Positions 10,645 to 32,685 of a stretch of 64,000 nucleotides of DNA are shown one piece after another; position 1 is the stretch's first letter, and every line of letters begins with the position of its first letter. Location: positions 62,001-126,000 of the forward strand of contig NZ_KB892868.1 in assembly GCF_000373965.1 (NCBI RefSeq). The letters are read 5' to 3'. This stretch comes from Uliginosibacterium gangwonense DSM 18521. Its GTDB lineage: Bacteria; Pseudomonadota; Gammaproteobacteria; Burkholderiales; Rhodocyclaceae. A program made the translations under genes and the position numbers. A model generated the notes under the pieces. The model did no database searches. It was not told where the DNA came from and was given only the letters and a program-made list of their open reading frames with translations.

Positions 10645-10656
10645 CGAAAGAGAAAA

Positions 10657-11334
10657 ATGAAATCACATACCCTCACGCACATATTATCGCTTGCACTCTT
10701 TGCCATCAGTGCGAATCAAGCCTTGGCTGCACCACAGGATGCTGCACTGCCCTTCCTGTTTCAGGTCATCAAGACTGCCCCGGCGAACACCGAAGGTTTC
10801 ACACGCACCTCCATCATCTACCATGACGGGGATGGAGAAGGCGAGGAATTGCCACCCTCGGTAATGTATTACAGAGGCAAAGATGACGACTGGGAATACA
10901 TGGCAATCAGCAATCGCAGGCTCTGCAAAAGGGCATCTGAACGCAAAGTATGCAGGGCATTCGAGAAGTTTTTTGAGCGACAACCGCATTTAGGCAAGGA
11001 AATCACCAACACCCGCATTGCACAGACCGGATTTGTAAGCACTTTTCTTGTCCATGTACCAAGTGTTGAAATCCCTAGTGCGGATCGCTCCATCGCCTTC
11101 ATCGGCGCAGACTCGCAAGATCCACCAGCGTCCCATCTGACGCTATACATTTATGCACGCAAGGGGACTGACCTGATTCAGCTTGCCAAGCATTTTGGCA
11201 CATGTGTGCATCAAGACCAGGAGCAATTAAGCGACGTGGCCTATTACCGCAAATATTGCATCTCCGACAAGATTCGTGCAGAAGCTGAAGCTGCAGGAAA
11301 AACCCTGCTTGAACACTTTTACCAGAGACAATAA
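10657..11334 (+). CDS. Secreted hypothetical protein, 225 aa
   Basis: It begins with a classical signal peptide (MKSHTLTHILSLALFAISANQALAA, cleavage expected after the AxA-like LAA), so the mature protein of about 200 residues is periplasmic. Four or five cysteines (CKRASERKVCRAF, FGTCVHQ, YRKYCIS) could form disulfides. No known domain is recognised. It starts 12 bp after the 869-aa gene and is followed by a 38-bp gap, consistent with the same transcript. A role as substrate or periplasmic partner of the surrounding ABC exporter is possible from position only. Confidence 0.8.
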   Translation: MKSHTLTHILSLALFAISANQALAAPQDAALPFLFQVIKTAPANTEGFTRTSIIYHDGDGEGEELPPSVMYYRGKDDDWEYMAISNRRLCKRASERKVCRAFEKFFERQPHLGKEITNTRIAQTGFVSTFLVHVPSVEIPSADRSIAFIGADSQDPPASHLTLYIYARKGTDLIQLAKHFGTCVHQDQEQLSDVAYYRKYCISDKIRAEAEAAGKTLLEHFYQRQ

Positions 11335-11372
11335 AGACTGTTGGCGCCAAGGAACCACACACTACTCCAGCC

Positions 11373-11924
11373 ATGAATTCGCTTCCTCAAACCCTTCGCG
11401 TACTAGTGATCGGGGCCTCCGGCTCAGGTACCAGCACGCTGGGACGGGCAATGGCGGCGCATCTGGGCTGCCCGTTTTATGATCTGGACGATTTTTACTG
11501 GCTCTGCTCCACCCCTGCATTTACCAGCAAACGCCCCCACCTGGAACGCCTGTGCATGGCATTGGCCGCCTTACATTCGAATCGCTGCTGCATCATGGCG
11601 GGATCGCCAGACACCTGGGGAGATGCATTGGAGAATGGCTATACGCATATCATTTTCCTCAGCCTGGACGCCAAGATTCGCGTTGAGCGCCTTGCCCAGC
11701 GGGAAACCCAAGGTTTTGGCTACGCAGACCCCGCGTTCCTAGATTGGGCGGCTCAATATGACGAGGGGCGCTTGCGCGGCCGCAGCCGGGCGATACACGA
11801 GCGCTGGCTGGCGGCGCGGCAATGCCCGGTACTGAGACTGGAGGGCGATCAGAGTACAGAGGAGAGGCGCAACAGCGCGCTGGATTTCCTTCAGCATACA
11901 AGCACTACGGCACAATCATGCTAA
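11373..11924 (+). CDS. P-loop NTPase, adenylate/shikimate-kinase-like
   Basis: A 183-aa protein with an N-terminal Walker A GASGSGTSTLG directly followed by a helix and the segment FYDLDDFYW, as in small-molecule kinases and topology-modulation (FlaR-like) proteins. Later FLSLDAKIRVERLAQRE resembles the kinase LID/base-binding region. The phosphate acceptor is unknown. Its last seven bases overlap the first permease ORF, so it is translationally coupled to the exporter even though kinases of this kind are not standard exporter parts. Confidence 0.85.
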   Translation: MNSLPQTLRVLVIGASGSGTSTLGRAMAAHLGCPFYDLDDFYWLCSTPAFTSKRPHLERLCMALAALHSNRCCIMAGSPDTWGDALENGYTHIIFLSLDAKIRVERLAQRETQGFGYADPAFLDWAAQYDEGRLRGRSRAIHERWLAARQCPVLRLEGDQSTEERRNSALDFLQHTSTTAQSC

Positions 11925-13081
11925 CCCTGATCCTCCGCATTGCCTTGCGCAACCCCTGGCGGCACAAGCTGCGGAGCAGCCTGACGGTAGCCGGGATCGT
12001 GGTGGCGATTCTGTCGTTCGGGCTGCTCAGCACGGTGGTCACGGCGTGGTATGCGGGGGCAGATGCGGCGTCCGACAAGCGTCTGGTTGTGCGCAACTCG
12101 ATATCCATGACATTTTCAATGCCTCTGGCCTATGCAGAAAGAGTTCGCGCGGTAGAGGGGGTGAATGACATCACCTGGTCGAATTGGTTTGGCGGGGTCT
12201 ATATCGATCAGCGCAATTTCTTCCCGCAGTTTGCAGTGGATGCCCCCAGCTATTTCCGCCTGTACCCGGAATTCGTGATTCCGCCGGATCAGTACCTGGA
12301 ATTCCTGCGTGACAGGCGTGGCGCGGTGGCCGGGCACAAGCTCGCGCAGCGCTTTGGTTGGAAGGTGGGCGATGTGATCCCGCTCAAGGGCACGATTTTC
12401 CCCGGTGATTATCAATTGGTGTTGCGGGCCATCTACAGCGGTGCACGCAGCAGTACCGATGAGAATCAGTTCATGCTGCACTGGGATTTTCTCAATGAGC
12501 GGATCAAGCAGATCTACCCAGGCGCTGAGAATCAGGCGGGCATCTATATCGTTGGTATCCGTGATGGACGGGAGGCGGCAGCCGTCTCGCAGCGCATTGA
12601 TACCTTGTTTCACAATTCGATTGCAGAAACACTCACTGAAACAGAAAAGGCCTTTCAACTCAGCTTCGTGGCCATGACAGGAACTATCGTGCAGGCGATC
12701 CAGATCGTCTCCTGGGTGATCATCGTGATCATCATGGCCGTGATGGCCAATACGATGGCGATGGCTTCGCGCGAACGCACTGCCGAATATGCCACGCTCA
12801 AGGCGCTGGGGTTCCGCCCCTGGGTGGGGGCCGCATTGGTTTATGCCGAATCACTAACGCTGGCGCTTGTGGGCGCTGCCATCGGCATCTGGGCCACCGG
12901 CCCGGCGGCCCATGCCATTGGCACACAACTGGATAACATCTTCCCGACTTTTCAGGTTGCAGCACAGACCGTGCGCCTGCAATGGCTGGCGGCCATTGTG
13001 GTGGCTTGCGTGGCGGCGGCTTTTCCGGCGCGGCGGGCCATGCAGGTGAAGATTATTGAAGGCTTGAGGAGCCTGGCATGA
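11918..13081 (+). CDS. ABC transporter permease, FtsX/MacB type (first)
   Basis: 387 aa. It has an N-terminal transmembrane helix after the positively charged RNPWRHKLRSS, a large periplasmic MacB-like domain (about 60-260), then three C-terminal helices separated by the typical ERTAEYATLKALGFRP segment. The topology matches FtsX-fold permeases working with the ATPase at 7.3 kb. The reading frame is open 96 bp upstream, but the ATG at 11918 begins the family-like sequence MLTLILRIALRN. The stop overlaps the next permease start in an ATGA. Confidence 0.93.
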   Translation: MLTLILRIALRNPWRHKLRSSLTVAGIVVAILSFGLLSTVVTAWYAGADAASDKRLVVRNSISMTFSMPLAYAERVRAVEGVNDITWSNWFGGVYIDQRNFFPQFAVDAPSYFRLYPEFVIPPDQYLEFLRDRRGAVAGHKLAQRFGWKVGDVIPLKGTIFPGDYQLVLRAIYSGARSSTDENQFMLHWDFLNERIKQIYPGAENQAGIYIVGIRDGREAAAVSQRIDTLFHNSIAETLTETEKAFQLSFVAMTGTIVQAIQIVSWVIIVIIMAVMANTMAMASRERTAEYATLKALGFRPWVGAALVYAESLTLALVGAAIGIWATGPAAHAIGTQLDNIFPTFQVAAQTVRLQWLAAIVVACVAAAFPARRAMQVKIIEGLRSLA

Positions 13082-14250
13082 TCCAGCGCATCCCATTCAA
13101 CTATATCTGGCGCAACCTTGTCACCCGGCGGCTGACGACGGTATTAACCGCTGGCGGCATGGGGCTGGTGGTGTTTGTGTTTGCCACCGTGTTGATGCTG
13201 GAGGCGGGCCTGAAGGCCACCCTCGTGGATACAGGCCGCTCTGATAATGTGGTGGTGATCCGGGCCGGGTCGGAAACCGAAATCCAGAGTGCATTGGAGC
13301 AGGATCAGGTGGCCGCACTTGAAACCCTGCCCCATATTGCTACCGACAACGCCGGGCGCGCAATGATAGCCAAGGAATGCGTGGTACTGTATTCACTGGT
13401 CAAGAAATCAACGGGGATACCCAGCAATGTCACCATCCGTGGCAGCTCTGCGCAAGGTATCGCACTGCGCCCACAGATCAAATTGATAGCAGGACGTATA
13501 TTCCGCCCGGATAGCAATGAGATCGTTGTAGGTGCGGGGTTGGCCAAGAATTTTGCGGGGGTGGAGTTGGGGCAGACCTTGAGCTTTGCCCGGCGGGACT
13601 GGCTGGTGGTGGGCATCTTTGACGCTGGCAAGACCGCATTCAGCTCTGAGATCTGGGGCGACGTGGCGCAGATGAAGCAGGCCTTTCGCCGCCCGATCTA
13701 TTCCTCGCTGGCCTTTCGCCTTGATAGCGGTGCGAACTTCGATGCCGTGCATACCCTGATCATGGCCGACAAGCGCCTGACCGTAGAAGCCAAACGCGAA
13801 AACCAGTTTTATGCGGATCAATCAAAATTCCTGGCTACCTTTATCCGCATTCTTGGGATGACCCTGTCCATCATTTTTTCGATCGGTGCCATCATCGGTG
13901 CCATGATTACCATGTACGCAGCGGTTGCCAGCCGCACGGCGGAAATCGGCACCCTGCGCGCCATCGGTTTTCACCGGCGGAATATACTGATCGCCTTTCT
14001 GGCAGAATCCATGCTGTTGGCTTTATTGGGTGGGCTAGCCGGGCTGGGTTGCGCCTCGTTGATGCAAACCTTGTCGGTATCCACGATGAACTGGCAGACC
14101 TTTGCCGAGTTGGCTTTCAGTTTCCGCCTCACGCCACAGATTGCTGTAAGTAGCTTGGCATTCTCGCTTGGCATGGGATTTCTGGGCGGCGTGCTCCCCG
14201 CATGGCGGGCGGCGCGTCTGAATATTGTCGAGGCCGTACGTTCGGCCTGA
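13078..14250 (+). CDS. ABC transporter permease, FtsX/MacB type (second)
   Basis: 390 aa with the same four-helix FtsX topology: an N-terminal helix after RNLVTRRLTT, a periplasmic domain, then three helices with the diagnostic SRTAEIGTLRAIGFHRRNIL loop. With the preceding gene it forms a heterodimeric permease pair. Such exporters move lipids, lipoproteins, peptides or macrolides, or act mechanically on periplasmic enzymes; the substrate cannot be read from sequence. It is translationally coupled to the first permease and 12 bp ahead of the peptidase gene. Confidence 0.93.
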   Translation: MIQRIPFNYIWRNLVTRRLTTVLTAGGMGLVVFVFATVLMLEAGLKATLVDTGRSDNVVVIRAGSETEIQSALEQDQVAALETLPHIATDNAGRAMIAKECVVLYSLVKKSTGIPSNVTIRGSSAQGIALRPQIKLIAGRIFRPDSNEIVVGAGLAKNFAGVELGQTLSFARRDWLVVGIFDAGKTAFSSEIWGDVAQMKQAFRRPIYSSLAFRLDSGANFDAVHTLIMADKRLTVEAKRENQFYADQSKFLATFIRILGMTLSIIFSIGAIIGAMITMYAAVASRTAEIGTLRAIGFHRRNILIAFLAESMLLALLGGLAGLGCASLMQTLSVSTMNWQTFAELAFSFRLTPQIAVSSLAFSLGMGFLGGVLPAWRAARLNIVEAVRSA

Positions 14251-20675: not shown

Positions 20676-21305
20676 ATGGAAGTTCTCGCGCCGCTAACTG
20701 CCCCCTTGTTCGTTGTTGCCAGCATGCCGATGTCAGCAGGCGACATTCTTGGCTTCCTAACCGGTGTGATCTGCGTCTGGCTCACAGCGCGGGCCAATGT
20801 CTGGAATTTCCCGACCGGGATTCTCAACAGCCTGATCCTCGGGCTGGTGTTCCTGCAGCAAAGGCTGTTTGCCGATGCCTCGCTACAGATCGTGTTCATC
20901 GTGCTCTCCGCAATGGGCTGGTGGGAGTGGTTATCCCGCCACCATGCGCAGGAATCCTCGCCGGTCTTTGCCACTTCGCAAAGGGAACAAGTCACCCTGA
21001 TCGCCATTGCAGCCCTCACCACGCTGCTCCTGTGGCAAGTGCTGGTCTGGCTCAAGGGCGCCTGCCCGCCTGTTGATGCCCTGATCACGGCACTGAGCCT
21101 GTGCGCGCAATGGCAGCTCAATACCCGCAAGCTCTCGAACTGGGCATGGTGGATTGCGGTTGATCTGATTTCCGTGCCCCTGTACTGGTATCGTGGTTTG
21201 CCCCTGATTGCCGGGCTCTACGTGGCATTCCTGCTCATCTGCCTGAAAGGCTGGTGGCATTGGCGCAGCCTCACGCAGACGCGTCTGGCGGAGGTCCGCG
21301 CATGA
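20676..21305 (+). CDS. pnuC: Nicotinamide riboside/NMN transporter PnuC
   Basis: A 209-aa inner-membrane protein with about seven hydrophobic helices and the PnuC hallmarks WNFPTGILNSLILG, MGWWEWL, QWQLNTRKLSNWAWWIAVD and VPLYWYRG. It imports nicotinamide riboside by facilitated diffusion, trapped by phosphorylation by NadR. Its stop overlaps the nadR start in an ATGA, supporting a joint salvage unit. The start could also be one of two internal ATGs about 16-18 codons downstream. Confidence 0.95.
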   Translation: MEVLAPLTAPLFVVASMPMSAGDILGFLTGVICVWLTARANVWNFPTGILNSLILGLVFLQQRLFADASLQIVFIVLSAMGWWEWLSRHHAQESSPVFATSQREQVTLIAIAALTTLLLWQVLVWLKGACPPVDALITALSLCAQWQLNTRKLSNWAWWIAVDLISVPLYWYRGLPLIAGLYVAFLLICLKGWWHWRSLTQTRLAEVRA

Positions 21306-22429
21306 GCCGGATTCTGTATGAGCATGGCCTTGTCATCGGCAAGTTCTACCCGCCGCATCTGGGCCACGAATACCTGATCCGCACCGCAGCGGCGCACTGC
21401 CGCCGGGTCACGGTAGGGGTGCTCGGTTCCAGCGTGGAGACGATTCCGATGCAGCATCGCGCCGACTGGTTACGCGAATCCTTCGCGGCCCTGCCCCATG
21501 TACGCATCGTGGTCGAGCTGGATGACGTTCCCATCGATTACGAAGACCCGGCGATCTGGGAGGCGCATGTGGATGTGATGCGTCAGGCCGTGGCACGGGC
21601 CAATCGTGACTACGGCCCAGCCCCGGCCATTGACGCGGTATTCACCTCTGAAGCCTATGGCGAGGAGCTGGCGCGCCGCTTTGCTGCCGAGCATGTCTGC
21701 CTGGGCCAGAGCCGCAGCCTCTACCCGGTCTCCGGCACGGCGGTGCGTTTCAACCCGTGCGATCAGTGGGATTTGCTCTCCCCGGCGGTTCAGGCCGGGC
21801 TGGCGCTGCGCGTGGTACTGGTGGGAGCGGAATCAACCGGCACCACCACCTTGTCACGTGATCTCGCACTGGCTTTGCGCCAGCGTGGTGGCATCTGGGC
21901 ACGCACAGGCTGGGTCGCCGAATATGGCCGCGAATACAGCGCCAACCTGCTTGCCCTAGCGCGCGCCAAATCGCCCACGGCACGGGCGGAAGACATCGTC
22001 TGGCACAGTGAGGATTTCACCATGGTGGCCACCGAGCAATGCCGCCAGGAGGATCTGGCCGCCCGCCACGGCAGCCCGGTGCTGATCTGCGATACCGACG
22101 CCATGGCAACCCGCATCTGGCATGAGCGCTACATGAACCGCCCCAGCCCGGAAGTAGCCAGGATCGCCGCCAACATGCCGCCTCGCGCCCTGTATCTGTT
22201 GACCCGCCATGAGGGCGTACCCTTCGAGGACGATGGTCTGCGTGATGGCGAGCATCTGCGTGAATGGATGACCGGACGCTTCCGCGAAGAGCTGACCGCA
22301 CAACCCATCCCCTGGCTGGAGCTGCACGGCACCCGCGAGGCGCGCTGCCGGGCGGCCCTGGTGGCCGTCGATGATCTGCTGCGTGGCGCATGGCAATTTG
22401 CGCCGCCCCTTGAACAACAACCCGCCTGA
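21302..22429 (+). CDS. nadR: NadR-type bifunctional NMN adenylyltransferase / ribosylnicotinamide kinase
   Basis: 375 aa. The N-terminal nucleotidyltransferase domain has GKFYPPHLGHEYLIRTA (the HxGH active site). The C-terminal kinase domain starts near residue 174 with Walker A VGAESTGTTTLS and contains WVAEYGREYS. Together they convert nicotinamide riboside to NMN and then NAD+. The DNA-binding HTH that makes enterobacterial NadR a repressor is absent, so this version is purely enzymatic. It is coupled to pnuC upstream, and only 11 bp separate it from the MoxR-type gene, so the NAD salvage pair probably leads the following operon. Confidence 0.94.
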   Translation: MSRILYEHGLVIGKFYPPHLGHEYLIRTAAAHCRRVTVGVLGSSVETIPMQHRADWLRESFAALPHVRIVVELDDVPIDYEDPAIWEAHVDVMRQAVARANRDYGPAPAIDAVFTSEAYGEELARRFAAEHVCLGQSRSLYPVSGTAVRFNPCDQWDLLSPAVQAGLALRVVLVGAESTGTTTLSRDLALALRQRGGIWARTGWVAEYGREYSANLLALARAKSPTARAEDIVWHSEDFTMVATEQCRQEDLAARHGSPVLICDTDAMATRIWHERYMNRPSPEVARIAANMPPRALYLLTRHEGVPFEDDGLRDGEHLREWMTGRFREELTAQPIPWLELHGTREARCRAALVAVDDLLRGAWQFAPPLEQQPA

Positions 22430-22440
22430 CGGAATCAGAC

Positions 22441-24024
22441 ATGCCACCTCTGAACTTTTTCCAGCGCCTGTCCAAGTCCCCCACCAATCCCAAGCCGATT
22501 GTCCGCCCCCGCCAGTTCGACGTGGCCGACCTGTACGCAGGCCCCTTGCAGACAAGTGATGCAGCCTCCGGTGAAGCCGTGGCCCTGGACGAAAAGCTGC
22601 GGCAGGCCTATTTCTGGATCGTTAATACGGCAATCATCAGTCCGCATTACGACATCGAGTACAACGATGGCCCCACCCAGCGCTATCAGGTTGGCGACAG
22701 CAAACGCACGCTGACCCTGCCCTCGGCACAGAGTTATTCCAGCTTCGTCCTGCTGCCGCTGCTGACCTTTGCCACCCGGCGCAAGTGCCTGTTTGTGGGT
22801 GGCCCAGGCCGCGGCAAGACGGCCAGCGCAATCTTGATGGGGGTGCTGGCAGGCTATTCGATCAAGGAAGTGCGCCGGGCCATGCAGCATGGCCACCCGC
22901 AGATGACGATTGCCGACCTGCTCGGCAACCCCCTGCCCGCCGATCTGGTCGGCGCCCAGGACATGAAGGAAATCCGTATCGCATGGCGTAACTGGCTGGG
23001 CATGCGGGTCAAGATCGTCGATGAATACAACCGCATCCCCACGCGTACCCAGAGTGCATTGCTGACCGTGATGGGGGACAACTATGCGGAAATCCTCAAC
23101 CACATCTACGAATGCCCGGAATCGGCCTGGTACATGACGGCCAACGACGACCGGGGCGGTGGCACCTATGCGGTGGTGGAGGCCTTGCGCGACCGTATCG
23201 ATGTGGTGGTGCAGGCCCTGGCCTTCAACCCGCGTTTTCTCGATGACCTGCTCCTGCGCATCGAGGAAAACATGCGCCCGGAAGAATGCGTACCGGCGGA
23301 AATCATCTTCACGGAGCAAGAAGTCGACCGCATGGTCGAAGAAATCCGTGCGATTGCCGTGCCACGCGAAGTCCGCCGCCGCATTGAATTCTTCACCAGC
23401 CAGTTTGAATTGTTTGAAACGGCTGGCGCCCAGTTTGAGTACCTCACCAAAGACACTGCGCGCCTGGCCGGAGTCGAATGGCATGAACTAGTGGCCGCAG
23501 ACAACGGACGGGATCGCCTCAAGGATATTGGCTGCCAGACGCTCAATGGCGTCTCCGTGCGCAATCTAATGACCATTCTGCTGTATGCCAAAGCACTGGC
23601 CTATTTCCGTGGCAATGGCGAAGTGGAGCTGGAAGACCTGCGCCAGACCCTGCCATTCGTTTTGCATGACAAACTGCAACCCGATCTGGATTCCCCCTTC
23701 TTCAACCTGCCGGAGAACATCCCCTTCAAGGCAGACCGCATCAGTTGGCTGCGCCATCTCTTCGATCTGGCCTGCGATGAATACGAGCGCCTGAACCTTG
23801 ACCGCGAAGACCCACTTGCTGCACTTGAGGCCGATTTCGCCAAGGGACTGGATGGCATCAGCGAGCGCGACACCCGTACGCGCCTTGCCACCATCGAGCG
23901 ACTGATCAGCGAACGCGTCAAGGGCCGCAAACTCTACGGCCACCTGTATGACGATCTGCTCAAGCTCAAGTACCTGCATCAACGCTACACCAACTACCTC
24001 CATTGGTTGCGAGCGCAGGCATGA
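22441..24024 (+). CDS. MoxR-type AAA+ ATPase, 527 aa
   Basis: A AAA+ protein with Walker A GGPGRGKTAS (residues about 120-129), Walker B VKIVDEYNRIP (D194, E195), sensor-1 region YMTANDDRGGGTY and an arginine-containing ALRDRIDVVV segment. Unusually long for MoxR, it has about 100 extra N-terminal residues and a 150-residue C-terminal helical extension. MoxR ATPases act with VWA partners as chaperones for metal insertion or complex remodelling, and the VWA gene is two genes downstream. Its stop overlaps the next start in an ATGA. Core gene of the putative system at 22.4-28.7 kb. Confidence 0.93.
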   Translation: MPPLNFFQRLSKSPTNPKPIVRPRQFDVADLYAGPLQTSDAASGEAVALDEKLRQAYFWIVNTAIISPHYDIEYNDGPTQRYQVGDSKRTLTLPSAQSYSSFVLLPLLTFATRRKCLFVGGPGRGKTASAILMGVLAGYSIKEVRRAMQHGHPQMTIADLLGNPLPADLVGAQDMKEIRIAWRNWLGMRVKIVDEYNRIPTRTQSALLTVMGDNYAEILNHIYECPESAWYMTANDDRGGGTYAVVEALRDRIDVVVQALAFNPRFLDDLLLRIEENMRPEECVPAEIIFTEQEVDRMVEEIRAIAVPREVRRRIEFFTSQFELFETAGAQFEYLTKDTARLAGVEWHELVAADNGRDRLKDIGCQTLNGVSVRNLMTILLYAKALAYFRGNGEVELEDLRQTLPFVLHDKLQPDLDSPFFNLPENIPFKADRISWLRHLFDLACDEYERLNLDREDPLAALEADFAKGLDGISERDTRTRLATIERLISERVKGRKLYGHLYDDLLKLKYLHQRYTNYLHWLRAQA

Positions 24025-25016
24025 GTACCCACGCGCTGTCCCCCGCCCTGATCCGGGCACTGCAAGCCGGGCGCAGCCAATTCAATGCCCGCGTAGCCGA
24101 GGCCAGCCGGGCGCAACCCGGCTTCGACACCCAGGCGGTGCAAAACCTGTTGCACGGCACTTTGAACCCATTGGCCGAGTATGCCTGCAACATCGATGCA
24201 GACCGAACAAACAGCTTCATCCTGTGTGCTTTTGATATTGGCCTCACGCTGCAACTGCGCGGCAAGGCCGAGTTGCCACTCACCCGACTGATCTGGCAGC
24301 ATGTTCTGCCAGCATGCCTGCCACTGGCCCTGCTACAACCACGTGACACCCTGGGCAGCCTGTTCAACGCCGCACTCAATTTGCATACCTTGGACAGTAG
24401 CAGACAGGCACTTTGGGCACGAGAGATGGCCCGGCTGGTGGGCCGCTGTGCCAATCTTGCCAATCTGCGCAGCCTCGGGCAAGTGCTGGCCTGGCGTTGC
24501 GGGCTGGCCCACTTTCGCGCCAGTGCCTTGGGCATCGTACGCAGCCTGCCTGCGGAACTGGCGGCTGACGCCTTGGCGATTCCTCCGGGAAAAGACCTCA
24601 CCGCTACACTGGGCGAGATGGAGGCGAATATCTGGTTCAACCCCGCCCAACCGACGCAAACAGGTTTGCGCGTGGTTCATGAAGTCGGGGGGTTCAGCGG
24701 TTTTGGTGGGCCGTTTAGCTGCCCGCCGGAAGTCCGTGTATATGCCGATGGATTTGTTGTGCGCAGTGCAGAGCGCTACTGGTATCTGAGCGCAGACGCT
24801 TTTGGAACCGCCCTGCATGCAGGCTCTGCTGAAGAGTTTGCGGCCGGCTCTCCAGACAATGGCCGACTGACGATGCGCGGCAATCAACTTCAACTCGACG
24901 CGCAGCATTGCGATCTGGACCTGCCCGCCGAGGGCTTGCAGATGGTATGCGGCCCGACCACGGCGGCGATCTGCTCTCCCTATTCACATTTCATCCGCTT
25001 ATTGGCGCTGTCATGA
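24021..25016 (+). CDS. Unknown protein of the MoxR-VWA cluster, 331 aa
   Basis: I do not recognise a family. The first roughly 190 residues look alpha-helical (Leu/Ala-rich with regular charge spacing). The last 120 look like beta strands around GGFSGFGGPFSCPPEVRVYA, FVVRSAERYWYLSADAFG and CDLDLPAEGLQMVCG. No signal or membrane segment. It overlaps both neighbours by ATGA, so dosage is tied to the ATPase and the VWA protein. In published MoxR-VWA ternary systems a third beta-propeller protein completes the set. This protein occupies that position, but I cannot see propeller repeats in it. Confidence 0.82.
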   Translation: MSTHALSPALIRALQAGRSQFNARVAEASRAQPGFDTQAVQNLLHGTLNPLAEYACNIDADRTNSFILCAFDIGLTLQLRGKAELPLTRLIWQHVLPACLPLALLQPRDTLGSLFNAALNLHTLDSSRQALWAREMARLVGRCANLANLRSLGQVLAWRCGLAHFRASALGIVRSLPAELAADALAIPPGKDLTATLGEMEANIWFNPAQPTQTGLRVVHEVGGFSGFGGPFSCPPEVRVYADGFVVRSAERYWYLSADAFGTALHAGSAEEFAAGSPDNGRLTMRGNQLQLDAQHCDLDLPAEGLQMVCGPTTAAICSPYSHFIRLLALS

Positions 25017-26833
25017 GCAATGTACAAGCACAGCCGCTTCATGACAGATGGCAGGCGGCATGGACTGAGGCGCTGGCAACCTGGAGCCGCTTCACCCGCC
25101 TGCAACCAGCCCTGCTGTGTTCCACACTCGAAGCTGCCCAGGCGGAAGGGCTGGACGGCAGTTTTGCGATGATCCGCTTCGTGGACCAGCGGGTGGTCAT
25201 TGATCTGCAAACCATCACCCAACTTGGGCTGGAAGATTACGCACTGGAAGTCCTCGCCCATGAGATCGGCCACCATGTACTGGCCCCTGCCAATGCAACG
25301 GACAACCTGCGGCTCCTCGCCCGTATGCGTCAGGCATTACCTACGCTGACGCAACACGCGCCCATGCTGGCGAATCTGTACACCGATCTGCTCATCAACG
25401 ATCGGCTGCAACGCCAATCCGGTTTGCGGCTGGCAGACATCTACCGCAAACTGGCTACCCAGCCAGACACCCCAAAGGATGCCCCACCCAGCAAGGTATG
25501 GGCGCTATACATGCGTATCTACGAGCAGCTCTGGCAGCTTGAAAAAGGCAGCCTGGGCGCAGGCTCGCTGGATGTGCGAGGGGAGACGGATGCCTGGCTG
25601 GGTGCACGCGTCATCCGCGTCTATGCACGCGACTGGCTGGATGGCGCGGGGCGCTTTGCGGCCCTGATGCTGCCCTATATCGTGGATGATGATGAAGCCT
25701 ACAAACACCACCTCCGCTGGTTGCATGACACAGCATCGGCTGGGCGCGATTGTGTGACGGGTGGCATCGGTGAGATTGAAGCAGGCGAGCTGGAAGGTGC
25801 CATCCACCCGGCAGAAGACCCTTTGATCACAGGCGAAGATGACAAACAGGTTGCCCGCACCGCTGGCAACAACGCCATTCCGCTCGATGCCCAAAGCACG
25901 GAACGTAGCGCTGGACAAACGCGCGAGCCTTTCGAGTATGGCGAAATCCTGCGCGCTTCCGGTGTGCAATTGAGTGAGCATGACATCGCCATTCGTTACT
26001 ATCAGGAACGGGCACTCCCCCACCTGATTCCCTACCCGCGCAAAAAAGCGCCTTCCGGCACAGAACCCTTGCTGGAAGGGCTGGAGCCTTGGGACTGCGG
26101 TGATCCGCTTGATGAACTGGATTGGTTGCAGAGCGTGCTGCAATCCCCGCGTGTTGCCCCTGGCATGACAACCGTCAAACGCCTGTACGGCGAGCAGCCC
26201 GGCGAAATGCCGGTACATGAGCCGATTGATCTGGACATCTATGTCGACAGTTCCGGCTCCATGCCCAATCCGCAATACTCTACATCCTGGCTCACGCTGG
26301 CTGGAGCCATCATCGCGCTCTCGGCACTGCGGGCGGGTGCCAAGGTGCAGGTCACGCTCTGGAGTGGCACGCAGGAGGTGCGGCAGACGCCAGGATTCAT
26401 TCGTCAGCCCCAACAGATTCTTGCTGTGCTGACAGACTTTTTTGGCGGCGGCACAGCATTCCCGATTCATTGTCTGCGCGAGACCTATGCGGAACCGGCG
26501 GGCCGCGAGCGGCCCACGCATATCCTGATGATCTCGGACGATGGGATCGACACCATGTTCGCCGACGACGAAAAGGGCAATTCCGGTTGGGATATTGCCG
26601 CTCAGGCACTCCGGCGCGCAGGCGCGGGGGGCACCTTGGCCCTGAACCTGCCAAACTATACTTCCAGTTATATGACAAGCTCGATGAATGCGATCAACAA
26701 GGCCGTGCAGACACAAGGCTGGGCCTTGCACAAGATTACGGATTGGGAGCAGCTCATGGCCTTTGCGCATGATTTCAGCCGTCGCCACCGGGACGGACAT
26801 ATCGCGGCATCCACTCAGAGGCAGACCCGATGA
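25013..26833 (+). CDS. VWA-domain protein with N-terminal HExxH metallopeptidase-like motif
   Basis: 606 aa. The N-terminal 200 residues contain HEIGHH (residues 83-88; HExxH with an extra His) and a downstream NLYTDLLINDRL segment that could supply further ligands, as in zincin-like domains sometimes fused to VWA. A charged linker follows, then a VWA domain beginning near residue 405. It has a complete MIDAS: DSSGS, the Thr in FGGGTAF and the Asp in ISDDGID. It is the natural partner of the MoxR ATPase two genes upstream. Whether the HExxH is catalytic is inference. ATGA overlaps on both sides. Confidence 0.92.
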   Translation: MSNVQAQPLHDRWQAAWTEALATWSRFTRLQPALLCSTLEAAQAEGLDGSFAMIRFVDQRVVIDLQTITQLGLEDYALEVLAHEIGHHVLAPANATDNLRLLARMRQALPTLTQHAPMLANLYTDLLINDRLQRQSGLRLADIYRKLATQPDTPKDAPPSKVWALYMRIYEQLWQLEKGSLGAGSLDVRGETDAWLGARVIRVYARDWLDGAGRFAALMLPYIVDDDEAYKHHLRWLHDTASAGRDCVTGGIGEIEAGELEGAIHPAEDPLITGEDDKQVARTAGNNAIPLDAQSTERSAGQTREPFEYGEILRASGVQLSEHDIAIRYYQERALPHLIPYPRKKAPSGTEPLLEGLEPWDCGDPLDELDWLQSVLQSPRVAPGMTTVKRLYGEQPGEMPVHEPIDLDIYVDSSGSMPNPQYSTSWLTLAGAIIALSALRAGAKVQVTLWSGTQEVRQTPGFIRQPQQILAVLTDFFGGGTAFPIHCLRETYAEPAGRERPTHILMISDDGIDTMFADDEKGNSGWDIAAQALRRAGAGGTLALNLPNYTSSYMTSSMNAINKAVQTQGWALHKITDWEQLMAFAHDFSRRHRDGHIAASTQRQTR

Positions 26834-27399
26834 CTCACGCAGGCCCATCGCTCGAAATCCTGTTGCGGCGCCTGGCGGAAACGCCCCAGGATTTTCTTGA
26901 CGCGCCACGCACCGGCAAGTCAGGACAATTGCATGTCAGTGCGTTGATATTCGACCTCAGCCACCAGATCGGCCAGCCCTTCACGGAAGCTGAATTGCGG
27001 ACGCTCTCCGGTACAGATGCCAACGGGATGACGCTTTGTGCAATCGCCTGTTGGCTATTGAGCGACGATACACTGCAGGGGCGCATCAGCAAACCCCGCC
27101 TATTGCCGTTTCTCGGGCAGACCTTGCAGGCATTGGCGGCGGAATACAAGGCGGAGCGCTACCTTCTCGACCCCGAGCGGCGCGAGGAACTGGTACGCAT
27201 CACCTTGGCCGATCTGGGCCTACTACCGGCAGGTGAGACCGCGGCGCAGGCGCAGGATCGCCTGCAGGCGTTGAGCAGCACGGAACGGCGGCGGATCATT
27301 GCAGCGGCACGCGAGGCGGAAAAACGCGCCCGCGAAATCCGTGAAGCGCTCATCAAGAAGGCTGCCGCCGAGGCCGCCGACAAATACACCCGGGAATAA
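26830..27399 (+). CDS. Small helical/coiled-coil protein of the MoxR-VWA cluster, 189 aa
   Basis: No recognised family. The first 110 residues look helical and globular. The last 60 are an uninterrupted charged helix (TERRRIIAAAREAEKRAREIREALIK pattern) that should form a coiled coil. No signal peptide. Start overlaps the VWA gene stop by ATGA, and the adenylate-forming gene follows after only 3 bp, so it belongs to the same transcript. It could be an adaptor tethering components of the complex. Confidence 0.8.
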   Translation: MTHAGPSLEILLRRLAETPQDFLDAPRTGKSGQLHVSALIFDLSHQIGQPFTEAELRTLSGTDANGMTLCAIACWLLSDDTLQGRISKPRLLPFLGQTLQALAAEYKAERYLLDPERREELVRITLADLGLLPAGETAAQAQDRLQALSSTERRRIIAAAREAEKRAREIREALIKKAAAEAADKYTRE

Positions 27400-27402
27400 A
27401 CC

Positions 27403-28749
27403 ATGAGCCGGGATGGCATCCGCCCCGATGAGCGTCTGTTCCCCTTGCTCAGTGAAGCTGGGCGGGCCATGCTGGCCCGCCTCTGTGAGCACCCTGCTGC
27501 GCCAATCTACCGCAACCGCAGTGGCCACCGCCTTGTCGCTGAGGATATCCCCCTCCTGCGCGATTTCACGGCCGAAGTGCTGGCTGCGCGCCTGGGCTGG
27601 CACAATGCGCCCGACTGGCTAGCCGACTTTGTGACGGATGCCTACCAGCGTGTGCCGGGCTACCGGGCACGCGGCCCGGTGCCTGCGCGCTTCACGGACA
27701 TTCCGACCATTTCGCGGGCAGACCTGAGCCGCAACATCACGCGCTTTGTACCCGATGATCTTCCACTGGACCGCCTGATCGAATACTCCACCAGCGCGAC
27801 CACCGGGCACCCCCTCAAGCTGCCCTCACACCCGCGCATTGCCGCCAGCTATCTGGCATTCCATCGGCGTGCGCTGGCCCACTTCGGCATTGAGTTGAAA
27901 GCGAGCAAAGGGGATGTCAGCGTCGTACTCGCCGGATTCCAGCGCCGCTGTTTCACCTATGTCTCAGTCACCCCTTTGCTGGATGAAGCAGGTCTGGCAA
28001 AAATCAATCTGCATCCCGCCGACTGGCATCACCCCGACGACCGGGCGCGTTACCTTGATGCGCTGGCGCCTGAGTTGATAACCGGCGATCCGCTCTCTCT
28101 GTCCGAGTTGGCACAGCTACCCATGCAGCATATCCCGCGTGCCCTACTGTCGACATCCATGGCCATGAGCGACGGGATGCGCGCGCAATTACAGGCCCGC
28201 TTCGGCTGCCCGGTGCTGGATATCTATTCGATGAACGAGGCCGGGCCGATTGCGGTCTACCTACCCGAAGCGGGCGGACATCTGCTGCTGCAAAATCGCC
28301 TGTATGTCGAGACACTTTTGCCAGACGGGTGCCCTGCTGCCCCTGGCGAACGTGGCGAAATCACCCTCAGCGGCGGCTTCAATTTCTACCTGCCGCTGCT
28401 GCGCTATCGTACAGGAGACTGGGCGGAACTGGCGATGACTCCGCAAGGCCCCTTGCTGCGCGATTTTCATGGCCGCCCGCCAGTGCGCTTCCAAACACTT
28501 GCGGGGCAATGGCTCAACAATGTCGATGTCAGCCACTGCCTTGCCCCCTTCGCCTTGCCGCAATACACACTGCATCAGCATGCCGACCTGGGGCTGACGC
28601 TTAGGCTGCGCAGCACAGAACAGGCCACCGCTGCGAGAGAGGCTTTGCTGAAATTATTCGGCACGGGCCTCCGCATAGAAGTCGCCCCGCTGGAGGCCCA
28701 GGACAAGGTGATCCAGTACACAAGCGAACTCGCGCCACCCCTCGCCTAA
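27403..28749 (+). CDS. PaaK-like adenylate-forming enzyme of the MoxR-VWA cluster
   Basis: 448 aa, similar in plan to phenylacetate-CoA ligase. The phosphate-binding loop is YSTSATTGHPLKLPS (about 129-142). YSMNEAGPIA is the A5-like acyl/adenine motif, and LRYRTGDWAEL is the A7/A8 region with the ribose-binding Asp. The C-terminal domain is short and the catalytic lysine typical of ligases is not obvious, so it may only adenylate or use a different second half-reaction. Its substrate is unknown. No aromatic-degradation genes are nearby; instead it closes the MoxR-VWA operon, 3 bp after the coiled-coil gene, which argues for a modifying role there. Confidence 0.86.
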   Translation: MSRDGIRPDERLFPLLSEAGRAMLARLCEHPAAPIYRNRSGHRLVAEDIPLLRDFTAEVLAARLGWHNAPDWLADFVTDAYQRVPGYRARGPVPARFTDIPTISRADLSRNITRFVPDDLPLDRLIEYSTSATTGHPLKLPSHPRIAASYLAFHRRALAHFGIELKASKGDVSVVLAGFQRRCFTYVSVTPLLDEAGLAKINLHPADWHHPDDRARYLDALAPELITGDPLSLSELAQLPMQHIPRALLSTSMAMSDGMRAQLQARFGCPVLDIYSMNEAGPIAVYLPEAGGHLLLQNRLYVETLLPDGCPAAPGERGEITLSGGFNFYLPLLRYRTGDWAELAMTPQGPLLRDFHGRPPVRFQTLAGQWLNNVDVSHCLAPFALPQYTLHQHADLGLTLRLRSTEQATAAREALLKLFGTGLRIEVAPLEAQDKVIQYTSELAPPLA

Positions 28750-29042: not shown

Positions 29043-29073
29043 CACCTTCATGTTAAACAAGGGAACACGCTCC

Positions 29074-29787
29074 ATGGCGCATATCAAACTCCGCGATCAG
29101 GCCTACGATGCCTTCGCCCAACACCTTCTGAACCGGCAACTGGTGCCCGGCCAGTTTGTCAGCCAACGTGAGCTGGCAGAGCTGACTTCGATGTCGCTCG
29201 GAGCCATCCGCGAGATGATCCCCCGGCTGGAAGCCGAAGGGCTGATCAAGGCCATCAGCCAGCGTGGCTTACAGATCGTGCATATTGATCTGAAGATGGT
29301 GGTTGAAGCCTTCCAGTTGCGCGAAATGCTTGAACTCACTGGCTTGGCGGAATTCTCCCGCCGCACTTCGGATGGAGAAATCCAGGCCCTCTACGACCGT
29401 TTGCAGCGCATCAAGCAGCAGGCCGAAACAGGGGCGATCACCGAGAGTTTCCTCAAGGAAGCCCAGGACGCAGACTGGCAGATGCACGACACCTTTGTCG
29501 CCGCACTCAATAACCAGCTGATTGCCGATCTGCACCGGGTCAATTCCATCCGCATCCGCATGATTCTGGGTGAGCGCATCGGCCTGCCCGCCGAGCGCCT
29601 CCCCGTGGCCATCCGCGAGCACGATGCGGTGCTCTCTGCCCTGCTGCGCCGTGACCACGCCGCCGCGGCCCTGGCGCTACGCACCCACCTGCATAGCTCG
29701 CGCCGCCGCTCGCTGAGCGTTGGCCACTTTGACGAAAGCCAGACATTAGATCCCACCAGCATTTCAGAAGAGCAAGGGGATCAATGA
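29074..29787 (+). CDS. GntR-family transcriptional regulator (FCD subfamily)
   Basis: About 237 aa. The N-terminal winged helix contains QRELAELTSMSLGAIREMIPRLEAEGLI, and the C-terminal all-helical FCD ligand domain has the metal-site residues in ALNNQLIADLHRVN and a final AIREHDAVLSALLRRDHAAAALALRTHL. FCD regulators sense sugar acids or amino acids and repress catabolic operons. The ATG at 29074 begins the family-like MAHIKLRDQAYDAF; an ATG 24 bp upstream is possible. It heads the operon of carrier, aldolase and YhcH, and likely controls it and itself through the palindrome upstream. Confidence 0.92.
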   Translation: MAHIKLRDQAYDAFAQHLLNRQLVPGQFVSQRELAELTSMSLGAIREMIPRLEAEGLIKAISQRGLQIVHIDLKMVVEAFQLREMLELTGLAEFSRRTSDGEIQALYDRLQRIKQQAETGAITESFLKEAQDADWQMHDTFVAALNNQLIADLHRVNSIRIRMILGERIGLPAERLPVAIREHDAVLSALLRRDHAAAALALRTHLHSSRRRSLSVGHFDESQTLDPTSISEEQGDQ

Positions 29788-29847
29788 GATGAAACATTGC
29801 AAAACCAATAACGATGTTCACACACGTCACAACAAGGAGGAGCACCC

Positions 29848-31182
29848 ATGGCTGACATGTCCCTATCCAAGGCGGAAACGCCCCCGCCCACATTCGCAGC
29901 ACCCCTAGATGCCGCAGTTCCCCCACGGGTGCGTCGTGCCCAGATCACTTCATTGGCTCTGTTGATTCTCACCGGAGTCATCAACTACATGGACCGTGGC
30001 ACGCTGGCCGTGGCCAATCAGAGCATCGCCAAGGAACTTGGCCTGTCACTCGGGCAAATGGGCCTGCTGCTCTCTGCCTTCTCTTGGAGTTACGCCCTGG
30101 CGCAGTTGCCCACCGGTGGTCTGGTCGACCGCGTGGGGCCACGCCGCCTCCTTGGCGTCGGGCTTGTCGCCTGGTCGCTTGCGCAGGCGGCAGGCGGGCT
30201 GGTCAGCAATTTCTTCCAATTCATCACTGCACGGATCTGCCTGGGGATTGGCGAAGCGCCACAATTCCCCTCTGCCGCACGCGTCGTCAGCAACTGGTTC
30301 CCGGTGAGCAAGCGCGGCACGCCGACAGGGATCTTCAATTCCGCCTCGCCCCTGGGCACCGCCCTGGCGCCGCTGATCCTAACCCAACTGATCCTGATTC
30401 TGGACTGGCGCTGGATGTTCATCCTCACCGGCGCCCTCGGGATTCTGGCCGCTGTTATCTGGTTCGCGCTGTATCGTGATCCTGTCGACCTCAAACTCTC
30501 TGCCGAGGAAACCACCTATCTGACAGGAGAGGCAGAAGACAAACCCAAGGTCAAAGTCACCTTTCAGGACTGGGTCGGCCTGTTCTCGTTCCGCTCCACC
30601 TGGGGCATGATTCTGGGCTACTTCGGCTCGGTTTATCTGAACTGGGTCTATCTGAGCTGGCTGCCTGCCTATCTGGTCAACGAGCGCCACATGAGCCTTG
30701 CTCGCACCGGCGTAATGGCCTCCGTTCCCTTCTTCTGCGGCTTCCTGGGCTGCCTGCTGGCAGGCTGGTTCTCCGATCAGGTGACCAAACGCACCATCGG
30801 CTCCCCCGTCAAAGGGCGTCGCATCCCGGTCGTGATCGCCATGCTGGGCATGGCGATCTTCACCGTTCCCGCTGCACTGGCCGAGAGCAACACGGTTGCC
30901 ATCGCCTGCATCTCGGTGGTGATCTTCCTTGCCAATGCCGCGTCGGCCTGCTCCTGGGCGCTGGCTACAGCCGTGGCGCCTTCAAACCGGATTGCCTCGC
31001 TGGGCTCGCTGCAGAACTTTGGCGGCTTCATCGGCGGCGCACTGGCTCCGATTGCCACCGGCTTCATCGCCCAATCGTTTTCCTTCGTACCGGCCCTGCT
31101 GACCGGGGCAGCCATCGCCTTCTGTGGCGCGATGAGCTACCTGTTCCTGGTCACTCGCGCCATTCCAGATAATTCTAAATAG
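29848..31182 (+). CDS. MFS transporter, anion:cation symporter (ACS) family
   Basis: 444 aa with twelve predicted helices. The ACS features are the first helix VINYMDRGTLAVANQSIAKELGLS, the loop 2-3 motif GGLVDRVGPRRLLG, and RICLGIGEAPQFPSAARVVSNWFP. Members import hexuronates, glucarate, galactonate or sialic-acid-like compounds with H+ or Na+. A very strong AAGGAGGAG ribosome-binding site precedes the ATG. The aldolase and YhcH genes downstream suggest that the substrate is an acidic sugar feeding a 2-keto-3-deoxy or neuraminate-type cleavage. Confidence 0.93.
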   Translation: MADMSLSKAETPPPTFAAPLDAAVPPRVRRAQITSLALLILTGVINYMDRGTLAVANQSIAKELGLSLGQMGLLLSAFSWSYALAQLPTGGLVDRVGPRRLLGVGLVAWSLAQAAGGLVSNFFQFITARICLGIGEAPQFPSAARVVSNWFPVSKRGTPTGIFNSASPLGTALAPLILTQLILILDWRWMFILTGALGILAAVIWFALYRDPVDLKLSAEETTYLTGEAEDKPKVKVTFQDWVGLFSFRSTWGMILGYFGSVYLNWVYLSWLPAYLVNERHMSLARTGVMASVPFFCGFLGCLLAGWFSDQVTKRTIGSPVKGRRIPVVIAMLGMAIFTVPAALAESNTVAIACISVVIFLANAASACSWALATAVAPSNRIASLGSLQNFGGFIGGALAPIATGFIAQSFSFVPALLTGAAIAFCGAMSYLFLVTRAIPDNSK

Positions 31183-31194
31183 ATAGAGAATATT

Positions 31195-32139
31195 ATGACA
31201 AAGTCTGCTTCACCCATCCAAGGCATCATTCCGGTCATGCTCACGCCGTTCAAGGACGACGGCCAGATCGACTATCCCGGGCTGGAGAACCTGATCGAGT
31301 GGTATCTCGCCCACGGTGCAGATGCCCTGTTCGCAGTATGCCAATCAAGTGAGATGATGTTCCTCTCGCTGGAAGAACGCCTCCAGCTTGGCCGCTTTGT
31401 CGTCGGCAAGGTCAAGGGGCGTGTGCCGGTGGTGGTCTCCGGCCACATCAGCGATGACGTGGACAAACAGGTTGAGGAGCTCGCCGCGATGAGCGAGGTA
31501 GGCGCTGATGCGCTCATCCTGGTCACCAATCACCTGGATCCGAAGAACACCGGCACCGAGACCTTCATGGCAACACTCAAGGTGCTGCTAGAGCGCTTGC
31601 CCAAAGACATGCCTCTTGGCCTCTACGAATGCCCAGCCCCCTATCGCCGCCTGATTACCGACGAGGAACTCAAGTGGTGTGCCGAATCTGGCCGCTTCAT
31701 CATGCTCAAAGATGTCAGCTGCGATCTGCCCACCGTCAAGCGGCGTCTGGCACTGACAGCCAACACCCCGTTGCGCATTCTCAATGCCAACGCGGCCATC
31801 GCCTGGGATGCCATGCAAGCAGGTGCGCCCGGCTTCAACGGCGTTTTCGCCAACATCCACCCCGATCTTTACAAGTGGCTGCTGGTGGCGGGTGCCAAAC
31901 ACCCTGATCTGGCCCGCGAACTGGCAAATTTCCTGGTGCTGGCCGCCGTGGCCGAAACTCAGGGCTACCCGGCATTCGCCAAGCTCTACCACCAGCGCAT
32001 CGGCACCTTCGGCTCAATCCGCTGCCGGGTCATCAACTATGATATCCGCGAGAAATTCTGGGCGCTGGACGTGATCCTCGACAAGCTGATCGACGGCACC
32101 GAGCATTATCGCGCCAAGATCGCCAAGCTTCCTGCATAA
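31195..32139 (+). CDS. DapA/NanA-family class I aldolase or lyase
   Basis: 314 aa, TIM-barrel dihydrodipicolinate synthase superfamily. The Schiff-base lysine is in FIMLKDVSCD and the catalytic tyrosine in LGLYECPAPY. The N-terminal start IQGIIPVMLTPFKDDGQIDYPGLENLI is typical. The family includes DapA, N-acetylneuraminate lyase, 2-keto-3-deoxy-gluconate aldolase and 5-dehydro-4-deoxyglucarate dehydratase. The operon context (FCD regulator, ACS carrier, YhcH) argues for a catabolic sugar-acid lyase rather than lysine biosynthesis. Twelve bp separate it from the MFS gene. Confidence 0.9.
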   Translation: MTKSASPIQGIIPVMLTPFKDDGQIDYPGLENLIEWYLAHGADALFAVCQSSEMMFLSLEERLQLGRFVVGKVKGRVPVVVSGHISDDVDKQVEELAAMSEVGADALILVTNHLDPKNTGTETFMATLKVLLERLPKDMPLGLYECPAPYRRLITDEELKWCAESGRFIMLKDVSCDLPTVKRRLALTANTPLRILNANAAIAWDAMQAGAPGFNGVFANIHPDLYKWLLVAGAKHPDLARELANFLVLAAVAETQGYPAFAKLYHQRIGTFGSIRCRVINYDIREKFWALDVILDKLIDGTEHYRAKIAKLPA

Positions 32140-32208
32140 TCCCCGCTTTGCGGAGCGCTGCATCAAATGTGCAGTGCTCCGCCATTCGTGATCCAGAAGG
32201 GAAAACTC

Positions 32209-32685
32209 ATGTTTATCGGTACCCTGGCCCACTGGGCCGAACACAAGAAGGTGTTGCCTGCCGCCATCGTCACGGCGGTCGACGCGGTACGCAGCCAAGA
32301 CCTCGCCAAGCTGGCCGCCGGGCGTTATGAAATCGACGGCAGTCAGATGTTTTTCATGATTCAGGAAATGAACAGCAAGAAGCTGGAGGACACCCGCTCC
32401 GAGGCCCACCGGCAATATGCCGATGTGCAGATCGTGCTCAACGGCCCCGAGCGCTACGGCGTGGCCCCACCGGATGGAACGCTCGCCCCCACCGAAGACC
32501 GCCTGGAAGAGAAGGACATCGCCTTCTATCCCGACCCGGCGAATGAATCCTTTGTCGATCTTGCTTCAGGCATGTTCACCATCTTCTACCCTGGTGAATT
32601 CCACCGCCCCTGCTGCAACGTAAGCCAGACCACCGCGCTGCGTAAAATCGTGATCAAGGTACATCGCTCGCTACTGGGCTTGTGA
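32209..32685 (+). CDS. YhcH/YjgK/YiaL family protein (cupin-like)
   Basis: 158 aa. YhcH family proteins are double-stranded beta-helix folds linked to sialic-acid and other sugar catabolism (anomerase activity reported for NanQ). Typical segments are FIGTLAHW at the start, RYEIDGSQMFFMIQEM, EAHRQYADVQIVLNG and the C-terminal PGEFHRPCC metal site. The ATG at 32209 follows AGAAGGGAAA; upstream codons in the same frame lie in the gap and lack similarity. It is last in the operon, before a strong terminator. Assigning it to neuraminate use is an inference, since nanK and nanE are absent here. Confidence 0.93.
   Translation: MFIGTLAHWAEHKKVLPAAIVTAVDAVRSQDLAKLAAGRYEIDGSQMFFMIQEMNSKKLEDTRSEAHRQYADVQIVLNGPERYGVAPPDGTLAPTEDRLEEKDIAFYPDPANESFVDLASGMFTIFYPGEFHRPCCNVSQTTALRKIVIKVHRSLLGL

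Follow-up and report, generated by a model that had tools for sequence, protein, structure and literature searches.

Gene organisation of the locus

We analysed a 64,000-nucleotide stretch of Uliginosibacterium gangwonense DSM 18521 (contig NZ_KB892868.1, positions 62,001 to 126,000; hereafter the window), in which seven genes follow one another on the plus strand between positions 20676 and 28749. They combine nicotinamide adenine dinucleotide (NAD) salvage with a MoxR-type ATPase, a von Willebrand factor A (VWA) protein, a PaaK-like adenylate-forming enzyme and two further proteins, here called u331 and u189. A first-pass annotation, made from the DNA alone, had read this stretch as a single coherent operon. 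The seven co-directional open reading frames are all present, packed with 4-base overlaps and gaps of only 11 and 3 bases:

20676..21305, plus strand: pnuC, nicotinamide riboside (NR) transporter (PF04973, 8.1e-48; TIGR01528, 83.4 bits, cut-off 42.45)
21302..22429, plus strand: nadR-like gene, nicotinamide mononucleotide (NMN) adenylyltransferase / NR kinase (AAA_28, 1.1e-26, over cut-off)
22441..24024, plus strand: moxR, MoxR-type AAA+ ATPase of 527 amino acids (AAA_3 and AAA_lid_2, over cut-off)
about 22798-22821, plus strand: Walker A motif of MoxR
24021..25016, plus strand: u331, helical N-terminal 200 amino acids and C-terminal beta domain (AlphaFold2 model)
about 24633-25013, plus strand: C-terminal beta domain of u331 (AlphaFold2 model)
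25013..26833, plus strand: vwa, HExxH metallopeptidase-like domain fused to a VWA domain with a metal ion-dependent adhesion site (MIDAS), by motifs and fold
25259-25273, plus strand: HExxH motif of the VWA protein
26246-26260, plus strand: MIDAS motif of the VWA protein
26830..27399, plus strand: u189, tail-bearing protein (57 relatives among 65 loci)
from about 27313, plus strand: u189 segment shared with membrane tail proteins (profile match)
27376..27399, plus strand: C-terminal tail ADKYTRE of u189 and stop codon (conserved end)
27403..28749, plus strand: PaaK-like adenylate-forming enzyme (DVU1553_fam_AMP, 5.5e-20, below cut-off; ANL motifs)

The overlaps join pnuC to nadR, moxR to u331, u331 to vwa and vwa to u189. 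The 11-base gap lies between nadR and moxR and the 3-base gap between u189 and the PaaK-like gene. Judged from this spacing, the seven genes likely share a transcript. A scan placed no plus-strand terminator-like site in the gaps between them; weak sites fall within genes at 21754 and 28201, another lies upstream at 20342, and both strands together hold 10 such sites against 6.7 expected. The sole match in a scan for sigma-70-like promoters is on the minus strand.

The gene set recurs in seven phyla

A single scan of 84,980 species genomes with the VWA alignment yielded 65 loci in Pseudomonadota, Verrucomicrobiota, Acidobacteriota, Planctomycetota, Myxococcota, Chloroflexota and Actinomycetota. 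The scan ran on two short peptide patterns, and 65 is therefore a lower bound. All 65 loci carry vwa, 62 u331, 57 moxR, 57 u189 and 52 the PaaK-like gene, while nadR (39), pnuC (31) and a radical SAM gene (28) are optional. Because short contigs lose genes, these counts are minima. Not every loss is a contig end, however, since moxR was not detected in four loci (L039, L086, L095 and L100) whose upstream sequence extends for about 9 kb or more, free of N runs. The common order is moxR, u331, vwa, (radical SAM), u189, PaaK-like, (pnuC-nadR), with optional genes in brackets. The five core genes (moxR, u331, vwa, u189 and PaaK-like) are complete in 47 loci, 41 of which have at least 2.5 kb on both sides; in these 41, nadR is found 33 times, pnuC 29 times and radical SAM 21 times.

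Since the set recurs across phyla, it goes beyond chance: the seven genes are a conserved modular system and not an accidental link. The proposal that NAD salvage, an AAA+ machine, an HExxH protein and an adenylate-forming enzyme belong to one coherent set is thus borne out over the 65 loci. The same annotation took MoxR-VWA genes widely free of pnuC-nadR as the mark of an accidental link. This applies in part, as 8 of the 41 long-flank five-core loci are without nadR, but 33 carry it.

At closer range, the VWA protein was found in 2 of 61 genomes (the window's own and 60 relatives). A close moxR orthologue (at least 77% identity) occurs in 3 of 398 phylum-sample genomes, the window's own included, and a MoxR match of any strength in 246 of them. 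Plasmids held no VWA relative; 13 plasmid records gave weak MoxR matches (below 33% identity) and four gave weak PaaK-like matches. One phage record weakly matched the PaaK-like protein, and viral contigs contained two distant PaaK-like matches (24% and 23%) and no MoxR relative that we could find.

When neighbours beyond the core were clustered, the clusters spanning 23, 7 and 5 loci proved, among their listed members, to be minus-strand frames overlying core genes. Ten genes sampled from three small clusters (6, 6 and 4 loci) are short-chain dehydrogenases, chemotaxis receptors and histidine kinases; the majority of neighbours remained unannotated. Family scans of ten genes within or beside single loci revealed no recurring client. 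Downstream of the operon in the window, positions 29050-32685 carry what we take to be GntR-like regulator, MFS-like transporter, DapA-like and YhcH-like genes, which look like a separate sugar-acid operon.

A conserved free C-terminus on u189

The earlier reading labelled the 189-residue protein a coiled coil and missed its key feature, a conserved free C-terminus with the consensus ADK(W/Y)TRE-COOH. Among 58 u189 proteins, 56 end in E, one in D and one in W; 53 have RE as their last two residues, and 47 fit the strict tail pattern. Over 57 proteins the last eight positions agree at 0.61-0.96. At the same end positions the other seven families reach 0.63 at most, with the peak at a single radical SAM position. 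Searched at the DNA level, a pattern that would miss divergent tails, the tail has one match in the window's own genome, which is u189 itself. In the phylum sample it appears in 3 of 398 genomes, the same three that hold the moxR orthologue, against 2 of 398 for the backwards control. Throughout the 65 loci, every complete PaaK-like gene (49 of 49) sits directly after a u189 gene, at spacings from -16 to 65 bases.

Tail protein and PaaK-like enzyme without MoxR and VWA

A search for the PaaK-like clade (E <= 1e-60) found it in 7 of 379 order genomes (8 places), in 2 of 43 genomes of the G040 family and in 4 of 227 of the G091 family. The total is 12 distinct genomes and 13 places, which partly overlap the 65 loci. 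A protein with a tail ending in RE lies directly upstream of the PaaK-like gene in all 12 places with upstream sequence; the thirteenth (G547) begins at a contig edge.

Three of these loci are minimal. In G040 (L168) and G800 (L190), a hydrophobic tailed protein is followed by PaaK-like, PnuC and NadR, and in G456 (L185) a 145-residue tailed protein precedes the PaaK-like gene. By hydropathy the tailed proteins have 7 (L168), 3 (L190) and 2 (L185) segments. They resemble one another (39% for L168 and L190, weakly for L185) and match the u189 profile over their last 28-43 residues only, with 14-18 bits. No moxR or vwa match lies within the fetched 18-20 kb of L168, L185 or L190, and G040 has no VWA match in its whole genome. 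A further genome, G670, has two loci: in one, radical SAM, u189 and PaaK-like stand without moxR or vwa across the 18 kb fetched, and in the other, two different radical SAM genes come after a full set. In L184 (11472-13303), two consecutive radical SAM genes, confirmed by Pfam, follow the PaaK-like gene and replace the usual one; a similar-looking pair lies at L186 1253-3012.

The set consists of two modules. Module A comprises a protein with a conserved free C-terminus and the PaaK-like ANL enzyme; PnuC-NadR usually accompany them, and radical SAM sometimes does. Module B comprises the MoxR ATPase, u331 and the VWA protein, which carries an HExxH domain. Each module also occurs without the other; most loci have both.

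NAD salvage follows the PaaK-like gene

The window's PnuC exceeds its family cut-offs in Pfam and NCBIfam, and the genome holds no other PnuC match. NadR scores over the cut-offs of AAA_28 and of the cytidylyltransferase domain model and stays below those of the NadR equivalogs (TIGR01526, 143 against 341 bits; NF005988, 79 against 201); by profile it is a distant relative. Its kinase P-loop, GAESTGTTT, has threonine in place of the usual lysine, as in L037 and L038 and thus in the whole window clade. The lysine (GK followed by S or T) is present in the other 33 cluster NadRs with the motif, which was not found in four more. The NR kinase step may be altered in the window clade.

That pnuC-nadR leads the operon, as first annotated, describes the window's own clade and not the other loci. 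Among the 39 nadR loci, the gene trails in 34 and leads in two (L037 and L038), while three (L079, L088 and L099) have it on the opposite strand; the pair also comes first in the window and in the congener UBA1310, whose locus L034 is apparently the record that L037 represents. NadRs of the window type share 72-78% identity within their clade and 28-35% with other types. In a tree of 58 NadRs, L099 pairs with the NadR of a genome without a close moxR (100/99), and L079 and L088 group with that of a genome without VWA (100/100). A single clade of the 42 cluster and minimal-locus NadRs against the 16 others was rejected (p-AU 7e-83). Since the cluster NadRs are thus not a single clade, the pairing probably arose or was re-established on more than one occasion: either NadR was recruited repeatedly or copies moved. 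This in turn suggests selection for the pairing. Among the 37 genomes of the window's family, VWA, a PnuC over cut-off and the window-type NadR occur in the same two genomes; another, G025, has a sub-threshold PnuC match.

The PaaK-like gene is present in all 39 nadR loci and nadR in all 31 pnuC loci. Of five long-flank moxR loci without the PaaK-like gene, none has nadR. We attach no p-value to these counts, as the loci are related by descent. NAD salvage tracks the PaaK-like gene and the tail-bearing protein, not MoxR-VWA. The earlier suggestion that it belongs with the MoxR machine is not supported; nadR accompanies the PaaK-like and tail proteins even in stretches without MoxR or VWA matches. 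Nor is NAD salvage obligatory, given the eight five-core loci that do without nadR. G205 (L163, 13083-14701) carries pnuC and nadR genes that share 51-57% identity with those of the cluster type, with no core gene in the fetched stretch.

Identity of the core proteins

MoxR belongs to the AAA+ ATPases by its AAA_3 domain and lid in Pfam, and 56 of 57 relatives keep Walker A. Profile searches and a neighbourhood map, as proposed in the first-pass annotation for u331, the 606-residue VWA protein and u189, revealed a conserved neighbourhood and no family for u331 or u189. Neither of these two has a Pfam match, and no usable hit came from NCBIfam, PADLOC or PHROGs, or from comparing their alignments with PDB sequences. 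PHROGs returned nothing useful for any of the five window proteins submitted.

The AlphaFold2 model of u331 (mean predicted local distance difference test score, pLDDT, 97) has a helical N-terminal region and a C-terminal beta domain. Foldseek found no PDB fold match for it at E <= 0.001 (best weak match E 0.084), and the beta domain gave weak matches only, some to propellers. The VWA protein, with a sub-threshold Pfam match only and a model of pLDDT 88, matches VWA structures including Rpn10 and NorD. Its HExxH motif, the downstream D..IN and the MIDAS DxSxS are kept in all 64 complete relatives.

The PaaK-like protein likewise has only sub-threshold Pfam matches, AMP-binding among them, and falls into the ANL superfamily by its A3, A5 and A7 motifs and its C-terminal lysine. 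RTGD and Y..E are each found in 48 of 49 proteins and the lysine in 43 of 45; motifs are named here after the A3 to A10 scheme. The A3 regular expression matched 36 of 49, and the non-matches among the 12 commonest forms are S-for-T variants. The catalytic motifs are thus largely kept. In a profile search of PDB, a phenylacetate-CoA ligase scored best (2.5e-19); the PaaK equivalog cut-off is not reached (27 against 646 bits). The best model for the window protein, DVU_1553 AMP-dependent CoA ligases (NF045666), matches all 45 members scanned; the window protein itself scores 71.7 bits against a cut-off of 300.

Relation to known systems

We could not find this gene set in the open-licence literature searched; an earlier description elsewhere is possible. 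Several known systems share parts of it. In E. coli yehLMPQ and ravA-viaA a MoxR gene also adjoins a VWA gene, and the MoxR profile scores 6.3 bits on RavA and 5.8 on YehL. YehP and ViaA, however, lack HExxH, and YehM scores 1.2 bits against u331. NorQ-NorD is likewise a MoxR-VWA pair, with a VWA fold match of E 9.9e-4, but it has no u331, tail or PaaK-like partner and inserts metal into nitric oxide reductase; to our knowledge NorD has no HExxH domain.

DUF2201 proteins (PF13203 plus VWA) share an N-terminal HExxH (HQxxH in one of five) followed by D..(I/V)N, and a C-terminal VWA domain, yet the window VWA protein has no PF13203 match up to E 1. A profile-profile comparison with five trimmed DUF2201 sequences was weak (N-terminal part E 0.051, VWA part E 0.001); it left out L102, L104 and L106, of the eight loci over the PF13203 cut-off, and three weak loci. 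Full-length hhalign gave no useful alignment. Given the weak trimmed comparisons, we did not file the protein in DUF2201.

Pupylation offers an analogy for module A. In that pathway a ligase (PafA) uses ATP to activate the C-terminal glutamate of Pup and then joins it to a lysine; the trait that module A may share is ATP-dependent activation of a protein's C-terminal glutamate. Against this, u189 is longer than Pup, and PafA is, as far as we know, not an ANL enzyme; we claim no sequence link.

Two further described systems share parts of module B. Group 2.2 jumbo phages carry a MoxR AAA+ gene beside a VWA protein fused to an N-terminal metallopeptidase domain (PMC7824862), a likeness drawn from that description and not from the phage protein sequences. 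The part of that article concerned mentions no adenylating enzyme, tail protein or NAD salvage. MoxR-vWA ternary conflict systems, as outlined by Kaur et al. 2020 (PMC7159879), add a third protein to a MoxR-vWA core. They differ in that u331 matches no family searched and that the seven window proteins have no PADLOC match. No clear VMAP, iSTAND, FtsH or beta-propeller partner emerged: u331 has no Pfam, PADLOC or PDB match, with no VMAP profile compared by name, and some of the weak matches of its beta domain are to propellers.

Accessory genes of single loci do match PADLOC models, which hints only weakly at the defence role suggested at first. Most interesting is L087, where a gene between moxR and u331 (1723-2832) matches a TIR effector model (7.8e-11) and, weakly and C-terminally, a nucleoside deoxyribosyltransferase family: TIR domains often cut NAD, and its product is a possible NAD-using partner. 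A radical SAM protein in L035 (11144-12109) matches prokaryotic viperin models over its N-terminal part (1.1e-15), which could reflect the generic radical SAM core. Further matches are a Ser/Thr kinase that, with a 736-residue protein lacking a Pfam match, separates vwa from u189 in L098 (Myxococcales; 9157-13003), a Fic-domain gene between u331 and vwa in L078 (9071-9973) and a subtilase after vwa in L083. In L065, where u189 and PaaK-like were not detected, vwa and a radical SAM match flank an AAA_14/DUF4143 gene (11852-13177; PADLOC PDC-S01).

A proposed pathway and its alternatives

The tail persists while the remainder of the partner protein and the other genes vary, and we therefore consider that the PaaK-like enzyme probably recognises it. 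In our model the tail would enter the active site of the enzyme, its carboxylate would be activated with ATP and then be transferred to a nucleophile. That the terminal glutamate carboxylate is what is activated is plausible, at somewhat less than even odds. Module B would capture the product, using u331 and the VWA metal site, and spend ATP to unfold, extract or trim it; by analogy with NorQD, we infer that MoxR, u331 and the VWA protein remodel or trim the product. PnuC-NadR would provide NR-derived NMN or NAD consumed by the modification or its turnover. Possible roles are an NAD-derived nucleophile, NAD consumption, or NMN release and recycling. In the boldest form of this reading, the PaaK-like protein would activate protein C-termini, as an ANL-fold analogue of ubiquitin-type activation: it would adenylate the last glutamate of a dedicated tail and couple it to a nucleotide derived from NR or NAD, or to some other amine, and the MoxR/zincin-VWA machine would handle or cleave the product. 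We give this boldest form a probability of about one in four.

A number of observations weigh against our model. We know of no ANL enzyme that activates a protein C-terminus. The A3 expression leaves 13 of 49 PaaK-like proteins unmatched and the C-terminal lysine is replaced by E in two of 45, while 11 of 58 tails miss the strict motif, and one tail ends in W and one in D. The tail matches of L168, L185 and L190 amount to just 14-18 bits, from a search of three chosen sequences. Five loci have u189 and no PaaK-like match. Two of them, L087 and L090, are cut by contig ends, with a PaaK-like fragment at the edge of L090; in L085 an ArsA-like gene follows u189 instead, and L091 and L100 lack the gene despite long flanks, L100 keeping a strict tail. 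nadR is missing from 8 of the 41 long-flank five-core loci. Finally, the tail could serve for docking and not as a substrate.

This last alternative is a tentative but credible one. Here, the tail would tether the PaaK-like enzyme to u189 or to a membrane protein, the enzyme would act on a small aryl or acyl acid, and MoxR-VWA would remodel the complex. Docking peptides at C-termini are common, the PaaK relatives with known structures bear the names of small-acid ligases, and in three loci the tail sits on a hydrophobic protein. The exact chain end, with E in 56 of 58 proteins, is more than a docking helix needs, although a pocket that binds the C-terminus would need it. Unlikely, in our view, is a conflict system akin to the ternary ones, in which the NAD genes would safeguard against NAD loss or supply an NAD-using effector. 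MoxR-vWA pairs do form the core of described conflict systems (PMC7159879), the distribution is patchy (2 of 61 and 3 of 398 genomes), and PADLOC models match accessory genes in L087, L098, L078, L065, L083 and L035. Yet PADLOC 2.0.0 matched none of the seven window proteins, the accessory genes other than radical SAM come from single loci, and the kinase, Fic and radical SAM models are broad. The recurring neighbours that could be identified, a minority, are dehydrogenases, receptors and kinases; moreover, module A exists without MoxR-VWA, and plasmids hold no VWA relative.

We find it improbable that module B inserts a metal, as NorQD does (PMC13036017), into an enzyme whose cofactor the other genes make. 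The VWA protein has NorD among its best fold matches, 28 of the 65 loci carry a radical SAM gene, and a B12-dependent methionine synthase lies downstream in L076, a locus without module A. However, no further family recurs like the core among neighbours that are mostly unannotated, and the genes sampled from the small clusters belong to no known type of metalloenzyme client. Chance adjacency of the NAD salvage pair and the MoxR operon has next to nothing left to it. pnuC-nadR pairs do occur without the core in the fetched stretch (L163-L167 and L169) and eight of the 41 loci are without nadR, but 33 carry it, in front, rear and opposite-strand arrangements, and the NadR lineages are not one clade; the neighbourhood counts refute it.

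Few clients are known for MoxR-VWA machines, which are common; the type described here comes with a defined set of partners. The conserved chain end can be tested as a substrate, and the tail protein with the PaaK-like enzyme offers a separable minimal module. If C-terminus activation is true, it would be a reaction new to the ANL superfamily and would constitute a novel pathway of protein modification. A tie to NR salvage would also explain why pnuC-nadR is kept in some bacteria and absent in their relatives.

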